Shown here piece after piece: positions 11,770 to 15,004 of a stretch of DNA of 64,000 nt (its first letter is position 1; each line of letters starts with the position of its first letter). Source of the DNA: Planctomycetota bacterium (GTDB taxonomy: Bacteria > Planctomycetota > Phycisphaerae > Phycisphaerales > Phycisphaeraceae). The stretch covers positions 5,022,001 through 5,086,000 of the forward strand of contig CP066225.1 in NCBI GenBank assembly GCA_016350165.1, written 5' to 3'. The notes below the pieces were generated by a model. The model saw only the letters and a list, made by a program, of their open reading frames with translations. It had not been told where the DNA came from and did no database searches. The position numbers and the translations under genes were made by a program.

Positions 11770-11797
11770 ATTTTATAATGTGATTTTCGGGGTCATT

Positions 11798-12463
11798 ATG
11801 AGTGAGGATACGCAGGACCAATCGAATACCAATATTTCTGTTGGTTACGATCTTGCTGGTGATACAAGTCACCTTTTTCAATCAAAATCGATTGATTCTC
11901 CATCAAATTTAGTTGGTAAAGTTGTTAATTCGACCAAGCGGGCAAAGTTTTGTTTGGATTGTGGGTACGATTTACGCGGTATACTAACGCGAAGATGTCC
12001 AGAATGTGGGAAATACTTCAATCCAAACGATTTTAATACATATGCTGTAACACCACGTGATGCAAAAGAAACTAAGTGGGTATTGCAGCGCCCCTGGTTT
12101 TTGCCTTTGCTTGTTATTGGTGTGCCAACATTATTGTACTTCATGCTATTAAGTGCAATTTTGTCTATAGATCCCAATAAGAATGCATTTTATCCAACAT
12201 TAGAAGTTATTTTTTATATCGCTATGATAATTAGTCCCCTGTGGCATATTGCAGTTTTTATTGTTGTCATGAGATGTATTGCAATACGCTACAATTTTCA
12301 AACACGTTTTCTAATTATGATAGCGACAGGCAGTTTACTTTCGTCAGTAATTTATGTTACATCTGGTTTCTCTGGATATAGTGCGATATTAGCGTTAATA
12401 ACTATAGTTGCTTATGCAGTGGCAACAATTATAGCCGAGGGATATTCTTCGCTTTGGGAATGA
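11798..12463 (+). CDS. Zinc-ribbon membrane protein of planctomycete type
   Basis: The protein (221 residues from this start) has a CxxCGYDLRG...CPECG zinc ribbon near residue 45, followed by four predicted transmembrane helices. Proteins with a CGYDLRG-type ribbon before membrane helices are numerous in planctomycetes and have no established function. The ATG at 11798 follows a GGGGTC site; a 5' extension to 11780 has none. It follows the aminotransferase by 28 bases and is probably in the same transcript. It is more AT-rich than the aminotransferase. Confidence 0.7.
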   Translation: MSEDTQDQSNTNISVGYDLAGDTSHLFQSKSIDSPSNLVGKVVNSTKRAKFCLDCGYDLRGILTRRCPECGKYFNPNDFNTYAVTPRDAKETKWVLQRPWFLPLLVIGVPTLLYFMLLSAILSIDPNKNAFYPTLEVIFYIAMIISPLWHIAVFIVVMRCIAIRYNFQTRFLIMIATGSLLSSVIYVTSGFSGYSAILALITIVAYAVATIIAEGYSSLWE

Positions 12464-12467
12464 GCAA

Positions 12468-14003
12468 TTAATATTCATTCTTGAGAAGATTTAGTTTTGT
12501 CATATAGCGTTCAACTAACTGTTCTTTAGATTCTCTTTTAACTGCTTTCCCTTTTTTCATATCTTGTTGCGCTTGGATTAATCGTCGCATAATGTGATTT
12601 TTCAATGTTGTAGCAAAACTGGTTGATCGGCTAGGGTTGTACTCTCTAATTACATCACTTAAACAAGCTGCTGCCACTTCAAGCAAATTAAATATTGACC
12701 ATAATGGTACATTATCTTGATCAAGAAAATGTAAACGCACATTAGAAACAAAGTGAGATGTGTGGTAATCGATCAGTAAGCCATGAATGACCTTGACCTG
12801 ATCTAAAATAAAATACACATCTTCTATGAGCTTCGCTGAAGGTTGATCTTGCGAGATCGTTTCTCTGAGTTGGTTTGCTTTGTATTTTAGATAGTTATAA
12901 CGTACGAAAAGTGAACGTGCGGTTTTATCACGTATACGTGGTTTCTCAAAAAGGTACCAAATTGACAATGGAATTTGCTCCCAATTGAGAGGGACAAGCT
13001 TTCCGCCTGCTAAATGACTATGAATTTCAGTTAATTGTTGCCTAAGAATAACTTCATCAGCATCTTCGCGATTGAACACTTGCAACTCAATATATGGTAA
13101 ATCAATACATTTAAGTTCTTCATATTCATGTTGATGAATTGCACGATATATAGTACTTCGTGTACGGCCAAAATGATTTGCTATGCGGCTGACAGCAATT
13201 CCCCAGCTATGCATACGAACAATGATCTTCTTCTCTCGTTCATTAATCGTGTGTGCATGATTCTCAAAAATAGCTTTATCTTGATTAGCCGTATCATATT
13301 TCGTAATAATTTGCCGAACTGTTTCAACCGCAATGTTTTGCTTTTTGGCAATTCGTGTGGCAGTGCGATTAAATGAAGTCGACGAATGTTGAGTTACAAT
13401 TTGTCTTGCATCGCTGATGATATTATTTTTACGTCTATCATCTAAGCGTCGAAAACTAGAAGCTTTAGTTACGCGATCCTGATAGCTTTTAGTGAAAGTT
13501 CTAATCGCATCTTCCGTAAATATTATTCGCTTTTTTTTGCCTGATTCCAAGCGAGCTTGACGCCAGCGTAGACCTTCTTTACGCCAGCGACTAATTGTTT
13601 TGGTACTAACATTTAAACGCGTAGCTAGAGTGTTGACAGTTTCATAACTCGATTCGTCCACAGATAATTCTAATGAATTAGTCATTGCATCAATTATCAA
13701 ACGCATGTCAGGTCGAATGGCTTCGCCGACAAGCAAAGTTTCGTTCTGTTGCGATAAGCGTTTGCCAGTGATTCTGTAAACCAAAAAATCAAGAGGATAT
13801 TGTTGTTGATCAACAATTTGATCATGGAGTTTTTCAGCTCTTAAATATTGCTTTTCACGCTGTTCAATAGGTGAATACAAAAGTTGAAGATTTAGTTCCT
13901 CGAGTTCATGGCATAAAAAACCACTTTTGCGAGGGATTCGCAAGAATTTTGTTGTACGCTTACTTCGCGTTCTCTTCCCATCACCAGACTTCGCCATGAC
14001 CAT
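12468..14003 (-). CDS. Sigma-70-like protein with several N-terminal HTH segments
   Basis: The 511-residue protein holds at least three HTH-like segments: VNTLATRLNVSTKTISRWRK (about 125-150), ATRIAKKQNIAVETVRQII (about 215-235) and IAVSRIANHFGRTRSTIYRA (about 275-295). After about residue 370 it resembles sigma-70 regions 1.2-2: SLFVRYNYLKYKANQLRE, then about 450-480 IREYNPSRSTSFATTLKNHI, like the FDPSRG-kFSTYA-wwI core of region 2. The usual order, region 2 before region 4, is thus reversed and nothing like region 4 follows. It may be a divergent sigma or anti-sigma-like regulator. Core-binding ability is inferred, not shown. Confidence 0.6.
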   Translation of the reverse strand: MVMAKSGDGKRTRSKRTTKFLRIPRKSGFLCHELEELNLQLLYSPIEQREKQYLRAEKLHDQIVDQQQYPLDFLVYRITGKRLSQQNETLLVGEAIRPDMRLIIDAMTNSLELSVDESSYETVNTLATRLNVSTKTISRWRKEGLRWRQARLESGKKKRIIFTEDAIRTFTKSYQDRVTKASSFRRLDDRRKNNIISDARQIVTQHSSTSFNRTATRIAKKQNIAVETVRQIITKYDTANQDKAIFENHAHTINEREKKIIVRMHSWGIAVSRIANHFGRTRSTIYRAIHQHEYEELKCIDLPYIELQVFNREDADEVILRQQLTEIHSHLAGGKLVPLNWEQIPLSIWYLFEKPRIRDKTARSLFVRYNYLKYKANQLRETISQDQPSAKLIEDVYFILDQVKVIHGLLIDYHTSHFVSNVRLHFLDQDNVPLWSIFNLLEVAAACLSDVIREYNPSRSTSFATTLKNHIMRRLIQAQQDMKKGKAVKRESKEQLVERYMTKLNLLKNEY

Positions 14004-14012
14004 TCCCGAAAG

Positions 14013-14891
14013 CTAACTCTTGAATTGTTCCCCAGCATATATTGTAAGTGATTTTAATTCGTCAATTAAATTCAGTTCTTTAGCATATGCTGCAAATTGC
14101 TTGATACCCATCAATTCATTATGCCCGATTTGATAGCAAAGTATTTCGCCCATATACCGCATTGCCCAATCATGTGGCCATCCATGTTTCTCAGCGTATT
14201 TGTCTGCTAAAGCTTCAATCTGCTCACTGTTCTGTATACGAAGTTCAGACAAAATGGCTGGAAGTTGTCCCAGAGCTTTACCTTTTTTTGTCATCCAAAC
14301 AGCAAACACAAAAGGCAAGCCCGTCATCTCCCACCATGCTTGTCCCAAATCCAGTTGATGCTTGTAAGCGCAGCCACATGGAGCATCGTTCACAACTTTA
14401 TCACCAATTAGTAGCATAGCCTCTGGTTGCTCAACTGGTTTTCCATCAGCCTCACGATCCTTCGCAACATAGCTCACCAGCTTTGGCTCGATGTGGAATG
14501 TTCTACTTAAGATCACACGCATTAGAGCAACGCTCGTGTGACTTTCTGTATCTGCATAAACCTCTGTAATATCAGGAATCGGAACCTGGCTGAATAATCT
14601 TACCGTAAGTGTTTGGCCTGCACAGCCAATCCCACCGCTGGGCACAATCACCAAATCTTCTGGGCTGCGGAAGTAATCAATCACCGGGCAGAGTGCAATA
14701 TCGACTTCATCATTCTCTAGTTGAGCACGGAGGTCGGCTGGAACACGATAATCCACATTCACACCCTCAACTTCGTCTAAACCATCGATCAGAGGCTTGG
14801 AATTTAGGTAGCTCACGCATCCTACTCGGCAAATCTTGGCTGATTCCAGCGTTTCCCCAGCCTTTATTGTCTGCAAATTGGGCTCAGTCAT
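14013..14891 (-). CDS. mqnA: Chorismate dehydratase (futalosine menaquinone pathway)
   Basis: The 292-residue protein matches MqnA: VGCVSYLNSKPLI at the N-terminus, DIALCPVIDYFR, the conserved VPSGGIGCAGQTLTVRLFS and DTESHTSVALMRVIL. It converts chorismate to 3-enolpyruvyl-benzoate, the first step of the alternative menaquinone route, so the organism probably makes menaquinone by futalosine. It starts nine bases after the sigma-like gene's coding end on the same strand, so it lies upstream of it and may drive its transcription. No other mqn genes are present. Confidence 0.9.
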   Translation of the reverse strand: MTEPNLQTIKAGETLESAKICRVGCVSYLNSKPLIDGLDEVEGVNVDYRVPADLRAQLENDEVDIALCPVIDYFRSPEDLVIVPSGGIGCAGQTLTVRLFSQVPIPDITEVYADTESHTSVALMRVILSRTFHIEPKLVSYVAKDREADGKPVEQPEAMLLIGDKVVNDAPCGCAYKHQLDLGQAWWEMTGLPFVFAVWMTKKGKALGQLPAILSELRIQNSEQIEALADKYAEKHGWPHDWAMRYMGEILCYQIGHNELMGIKQFAAYAKELNLIDELKSLTIYAGEQFKS

Positions 14892-15004
14892 GTCTTTCTC
14901 GGTATACTTTCAATAAAATCCGGTTGCTGGTCAGCATCCCGCTGACATCTCCAGCATAACACGAACAACATCGCCACGTAAGGCGCACCACGAATCATAA
15001 CACC

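Follow-up and report, generated by a model that had tools for sequence, protein, structure and literature searches.

The open reading frame at 12468-14003 (-) of the window, which here means the whole 64-kb stretch of DNA that was analysed, encodes a 511-aa protein whose C-terminal part resembles region 2 of sigma70, while its helix-turn-helix (HTH) segments stand in front of that part. This raises the question of what kind of sigma factor it is, or whether it still is one. The original prediction had taken it for a permuted or degenerate sigma, and both motifs quoted there are present in the translation. The features of the locus, as derived from an AlphaFold model of the 511-aa protein (mean pLDDT 87.4), from Pfam and profile searches, and from conservation within the family of the window protein (41 proteins, 32 of them from f1 genomes and 9 from named-record loci in the same tree branch), are as follows.

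12468..14003 (-): HTH-fused, region-4-less sigma70 descendant, whole gene (ATG start, 511 aa)
14013..14891 (-): mqnA, directly upstream (Pfam VitK2_biosynth, 5.1e-40)
13668..13919 (-): N-terminal alpha/beta module, residues 29-112 (YPLDF..YRITG..LLVGEAIRPDMRLIID; AlphaFold model)
13479..13658 (-): HTH1, residues 116-175, winged/MerR-like (Pfam HTH_17, model, conservation)
13275..13454 (-): HTH2, residues 184-243 (AlphaFold model helices 189-205, 211-222 and 226-239)
13095..13268 (-): HTH3, residues 246-303, homeodomain-like (Pfam HTH_23; helical HTH at 255-298 in the model)
13044..13076 (-): linker motif F..EDADEVIL, residues 310-320 (conservation of F310, D314 and A315)
12555..12980 (-): helical bundle, residues 342-483, assigned to sigma regions 1.2 to 2.4 (VIA-align and profile search)
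12573..12698 (-): sigma2.2-2.4 stretch, residues 436-477 (core-binding and melting residues replaced, by column counts)
12471..12554 (-): C-terminal tail, residues 484-511, the site of sigma3-sigma4 in relatives

Domain organization

The N-terminal module (residues 29-112) of the window protein has no match in Pfam. HTH1 is recognized by HTH_17 at residues 122-171 with 26.5 bits, slightly below the cut-off of 27, by a conserved RWR..GLRWR motif and by winged HTH elements at 120-173 of the model. HTH2 is visible in the model only and receives no confident Pfam domain call. HTH3 is matched by HTH_23 at 254-292 (E=1.2e-8) and also by Sigma70_r4 at 252-290, with 24.8 bits against a cut-off of 24.1. 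After the sigma bundle the model contains only a helix at 493-508 and no HTH; the predicted order of three HTHs in front and none behind is therefore confirmed. In the linker, F310, D314 and A315 are conserved in the family and less strictly so in the relatives with a full sigma part.

Two sigma proteins of another planctomycete family, of 379 aa (L155:2283-3419, (-)) and 381 aa (L156:2588-3730, (+)), have a sigma part preceded by the N-terminal module and a linker-like motif but lack HTH1-3, which indicates that the module and the HTHs are separable. Both, as well as L157, were left out of the tree and of all comparisons owing to their other architecture.

Assignment of the C-terminal bundle

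Model residues 342-482 superimpose on residues 96..446 of E. coli sigma70 with a Z score of 12.6 and an rmsd of 2.3 over 135 aligned residues (VIA-align), and 50 of the 50 rows among the matches listed come from RNA polymerase entries, the chains being taken as sigma. As helical bundles may reach Z of about 13 through their common arrangement, and as Foldseek with the model of the sigma bundle gave nothing at E ≤ 0.001, its best match being domain 2 of sigmaA at 0.14, evidence from sequence is important. With a profile of 24 window-family proteins, Taq SigA is found in the PDB at E=5e-8, and with a single exception the matches listed (60 of 75) are named sigma factors; the addition of five f6 relatives to the profile improves the sigma match to 2.2e-10. 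When a sigma2 HMM was made from 41 relatives that do not belong to the window's family, the C-terminal 172 residues of the window protein scored 43.5 bits and residues 1-325 scored 1.4, while shuffled sequences reached 10.4 bits at best (2000 made, 1977 scored), placing the resemblance beyond chance. By modelled fold and by sequence profile, the C-terminal bundle is thus sigma70 regions 1.2-2.4, and the sigma-70-like region 2 foreseen in the original prediction holds up under remote homology search, structure comparison and the presence of a full sigma part in the relatives.

The window sequence taken alone does not reveal this. It matches no Sigma70_r2 in Pfam and no sigma chain in the PDB, its last 172 residues match no Pfam family, and the only resemblance in NCBIfam is between HTH3 and the end of sigma models that holds region 4, so that a single-sequence search would miss the sigma part. 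Within the window's genome the gene is absent from the 20 Sigma70_r2 matches, among which a 618-aa ORF has both regions. A widespread protein of the Phycisphaeraceae, probably a regulator, hence shows only its HTH domains when one sequence is compared with domain libraries, and no paper on this family was found in the open-licence literature.

Relatives with a complete sigma part

In the order, 56 of 61 genomes (the window's own included) have a match, one each, three second matches being split ones on the same contig. All 120 genomes drawn from the class match a profile of 29 proteins, 118 of them at 1e-23 or better. Among 111 genomes from other classes of the phylum, 11 reach 1e-20 or better, the remaining phylum matches being mostly to the sigma2 part alone, among the matches listed. 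The 41 relatives used for comparison comprise 5 from f6, 28 from the class (out of the 101 class genomes that belong to other orders) and 8 from the phylum (out of 11), the latter two sets being picked for spread and strong matches.

In the alignment these 41 proteins share the HTH front, behind which come sigma2, sigma3 and sigma4, and their sigma2 mostly reads D/E-G-N and FDYxRGxxFSTYAxW. Searched with Pfam at E 0.001, the last 260 residues match Sigma70_r2 in 40/41 of them and Sigma70_r4 in 40/41; the f6 relative L035 stays below the region-2 cut-off and lacks a region-4 match. The five scanned against NCBIfam (L024, L031, L109, L113 and L114) all pass the cut-off of the sigma70 superfamily.

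The possibility that a front HTH is a displaced region 4 is rejected on this ground. Since the full-sigma relatives possess HTH1-3 and a separate C-terminal region 4 together, HTH3 is not a moved region 4; the HTHs predate the loss of region 4, and permutation is ruled out. The term "permuted" used in the original prediction has accordingly been abandoned. Direct comparison agrees with this: HTH1, HTH2 and HTH3 are each about equally similar to region 4 (hhalign, 61-79%), and HTH1, HTH2, HTH3 and HTH2+3 match sigma3-sigma4 of the 41 relatives at 46-79% probability, which, being about equal for all HTHs, indicates no specific likeness to sigma3-sigma4. In the model of the N-terminal half, VIA-align pairs HTH2-HTH3 with sigma3-sigma4 at Z of about 7, a pairing that is uninformative because the rmsd is near 20 and Myb repeats match equally well; Foldseek gave no match for this half at E 0.001 or better.

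Loss of region 4

Pfam finds Sigma70_r4 in 0/40 and Sigma70_r2 in 5/40 of the family proteins (last 172 residues, L029 left out), the window protein not being one of the five. The succession of Pfam regions 2 and 4 that marks a sigma70 is not found in the window protein, where Sigma70_r4 occurs at HTH3 only. A region-4 HMM run in six frames over the 41 family loci, among them the complete 64-kb window and L029, which is cut by its contig end, gave no hit in any of them; this HMM was built from the 41 outside relatives, whose own matches are by construction, so that Pfam serves as the independent check. The tail after sigma2 measures 31-67 aa in 39 family proteins as compared to 106-150 aa in the 41 outside relatives. 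A sequencing or gene-call artefact as the cause of the missing region 4 was also considered, and rejected because the region is missing in six frames across these loci.

A region-4 protein encoded elsewhere in the genome could pair with the region-2 protein, as in SigO-RsoA. Sigmas of this two-part kind exist according to PMC8103513, and of the 27 region-4 matches in the genome, eight are in ORFs for which no region 2 is listed; one of the eight passes the Pfam cut-off. The absence of any region-4 sequence around the gene in the 41 loci, and the replacement of the core-contact residues described below, nevertheless make such a split sigma very improbable.

Replacement of sigma2 residues

Region 2.2 of sigma contacts the coiled coil of beta' and regions 2.3-2.4 contact the -10 strand, as stated in PMC4598750. 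Residue columns were counted in E. coli numbering, anchored on F427, in 39 of the 41 family proteins, L029 (cut by the contig end) and L045 (very divergent, with an over-long frame) being dropped. The window protein shows the substitutions E407V, G408A, N409A, M413S, Y430T and W433N, together with S at G424. Positions 407, 408 and 409, which we take to be the region 2.2 residues that matter for binding of the beta' clamp, are all replaced, and Y430T and W433N fall on positions of region 2.3-2.4 that presumably melt and read the -10 element.

Column 407 is D/E in 40/41 outside relatives and mostly L (11), Q (7), A (5) or I (5) in the family (n=39). G408 occurs in 41/41 outside relatives against 25/39 family proteins, N409 in 36/41 against 9/39, Y430 in 40/41 against 10/39 and W433 in 32/41 against 15/39; G424, present in 38/41 outside relatives, is not within the five commonest residues of the family at its column. 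D/E at column 403 is kept by 26/39 family proteins, and M at column 413 is found in just 25/41 outside relatives. Positions 434 and 437 are uninformative, because the 41 outside relatives also depart from E. coli there.

The changes seen in sigma2.2-2.4 argue against canonical core binding and against melting of the -10 element by the window protein, and it is the "degenerate" half of the original prediction, in line with the profiles, the model fold and the full-sigma relatives, that describes the protein well. Core binding may survive in more sigma-like members of the family, e.g. L005 (Sigma70_r2 at 30.6 bits against a cut-off of 24), because 5/40 proteins match Sigma70_r2 and sigma2 HMM scores across the family reach 94.3 bits.

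These residues also bear on the possibility that the protein is permuted in function, the front HTHs reading promoters while a rewired C-terminal sigma2 still docks on the beta' clamp helices. The well-conserved HTHs placed before sigma1.2-2, the retention of the modelled sigma2 fold and of selection on it, the persistence of Y430 and W433 in the minorities counted above and the score of HTH3 above the Sigma70_r4 cut-off would all fit such a sigma, and, if true, it would be a natural, working sigma factor whose DNA-reading end, after the loss of sigma3-sigma4, sits on the wrong side. The six substitutions from E407V to W433N in the window protein, the presence of the HTHs before region 4 was lost and the lack of a specific likeness of HTH2-HTH3 to sigma3-sigma4 in hhalign render it unlikely.

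Selection on the two halves

Mean pairwise identity of sigma2.1-2.4 is 56.5% among the 41 outside relatives and 34.6% in the family, whereas that of residues 20-325 is 32.9% and 42.3%, respectively; the constraint between the two halves is inverted in the family relative to the outside relatives. At a comparable N-terminal identity of 30-35%, residues 356-475 are 45.7% identical in pairs of the 41 and 25.2% in family pairs. D61, R101, R146, W147 and W149 are nearly invariant in the family only, with D61, R101 and R146 invariant; the window protein itself has Q149. The dN/dS ratios of the ten closest family pairs are 0.12-0.23 for sigma2 and 0.15-0.28 for the N-terminal half, with the reservation that sigma2 dS exceeds 1 in 8/10 pairs, that nine pairs share five proteins and that the window protein is in none; the short tail is more variable (0.09-0.89 where computed). 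Judged from these sequences, function seems to have moved to the HTH half, and the change does not resemble decay.

A decaying remnant without function would account for the lost domain and the fast divergence of sigma2. It is hardly credible for a gene matched in 49/50 good-quality genomes of the order sample, with inside stops listed for two matches only, with dN/dS of 0.12-0.28 across both halves and with its gene order kept.

The fold was retained while the functional residues changed, a combination that a sigma mimic or antagonist would also produce, its sigma2 relic binding an anti-sigma factor or filling the beta' clamp without melting DNA. The principle is known from PhyR, a response regulator containing a sigma-like domain in the account of PMC8103513. 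The window protein resembles PhyR in having a sigma-like domain within a probable regulator and differs from it in that a receiver domain is absent from its Pfam list, which holds 19 families up to E=5, and in that its sigma part lies at the C-terminus, with matches to group 1-3 sigmas. Conservation being strongest in the DNA-binding half, a mimic of this kind is improbable.

Descent and gene order

In a tree built by a quick method from 101 rows of the N-terminal half, the window's family lies on one side of a branch with SH-aLRT 99, the f6 proteins are grouped at 100, 19 f2-f5 proteins at 99 and the three groups together at 99, with the root not inferred, the branching order of the three groups unsettled and the phylum rows not forming one side. 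mqnA precedes the gene on the same strand in 35/41 family, 5/5 f6 and 17/19 f2-f5 loci, with a spacing within -600 to 300 nt in 54/57 (stop-to-stop frames). The synteny with mqnA, whose conservation the original prediction had left to be looked up, is thus kept through most of the order. It was seen at 0/28 class and 0/8 phylum loci, where flanks of 0.5-3.9 kb were available and a divergent MqnA could be missed. Because most f6 genomes have a full sigma at the same locus beside mqnA, we infer that a single orthologous gene has been truncated at its end.

In the window, 9 nt separate the mqnA stop from the ATG of the 511-aa gene on the same strand, and the end of the latter lies 4 nt from that of a convergent gene (11780-12463, (+)). 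The convergent gene encodes a 227-aa protein with hydrophobic stretches and a double zinc ribbon match below the Pfam cut-off (DZR, 6.7e-05, 23.4 bits against 27.3). The interval 14892-15004 lies between mqnA and a divergent gene judged by eye to encode an NtrC-type regulator, an arrangement common to many window-family members. A search for a shared operator upstream of mqnA in 28 family loci found none, the best dyad occurring in 6/28 and shuffles giving up to 4.

In the f2-f5 proteins (L036-L056), region 4 is detectable with the HMM built here in 6/19, and Y430 is aligned in 1/19, the alignment being uncertain at that column. Their decay, so far as the alignment allows, runs opposite to that of the window's family, region 4 being kept in some and the sigma2 key residues lost.

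Probable function and comparison with known sigma factors

The best explanation, to which we assign a probability of roughly two in three, is that the window protein is an HTH-fused sigma70 turned DNA-binding regulator, which no longer opens promoters. Its ancestor was a planctomycete sigma70 that already carried the N-terminal module and three HTHs before sigma1.2-sigma2-sigma3-sigma4, as the relatives demonstrate. The lineage that gave rise to the window's family lost sigma3-sigma4, as is evident from the sequences, and the sigma2 residues that serve in beta' clamp binding and in opening and reading the -10 element were changed, while the predicted fold and purifying selection stayed. The protein would now most likely be a sequence-specific DNA-binding regulator acting via its HTH units. 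The sigma2 relic would probably serve as a structural or protein-binding module, perhaps with a weakened contact to RNA polymerase, and not as a promoter-opening sigma subunit that melts the -10 element. Competition for core RNA polymerase or promoter-specific regulation, the two mechanisms offered in the original prediction, are both conceivable for such a protein, though its sigma2.2-2.4 substitutions tell against canonical core binding and -10 melting.

At one conserved locus, living genomes thus present a graded series in which a sigma70 loses what makes it a sigma, from the full sigma (most of f6 and of the class) through the loss of region 4 (window's family) to an eroded sigma2 (f2-f5). 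The question of how a general transcription subunit becomes a specific regulator is thereby made directly testable via paired proteins.

The likeness to sigma70 of groups 1-3 (RpoD/SigA, RpoS) consists in regions 1.2-2.4 by fold and profile, with descent traced via the full-sigma relatives, whereas the lack of regions 3 and 4, the replaced core-binding and melting residues and the three front HTHs set the window protein apart. Phage T4 gp55 is likewise a region-2-type sigma without region 4, but it is small and has no HTH front. RsoA of the Bacillus subtilis two-part sigma SigO-RsoA shares with the window protein a sigma2 without sigma4, as described in PMC8103513; the window protein differs in its large HTH front, its degenerate region 2 and the absence of a region-4 gene beside it in the 41 loci. 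The planctomycete HTH-sigma70 relatives L024, L109 and L113 have the same order of N-terminal module, HTH1-3, linker motif and sigma1.2-2, and differ in retaining the sigma2 key residues, sigma3 and sigma4. Outside the window, the same genome contains a tandem array of sigma-like genes (G000:C1:4857635-4862636), in which 5 kb hold four ORFs, each about 484-506 aa long and with a Sigma70_r2 match.
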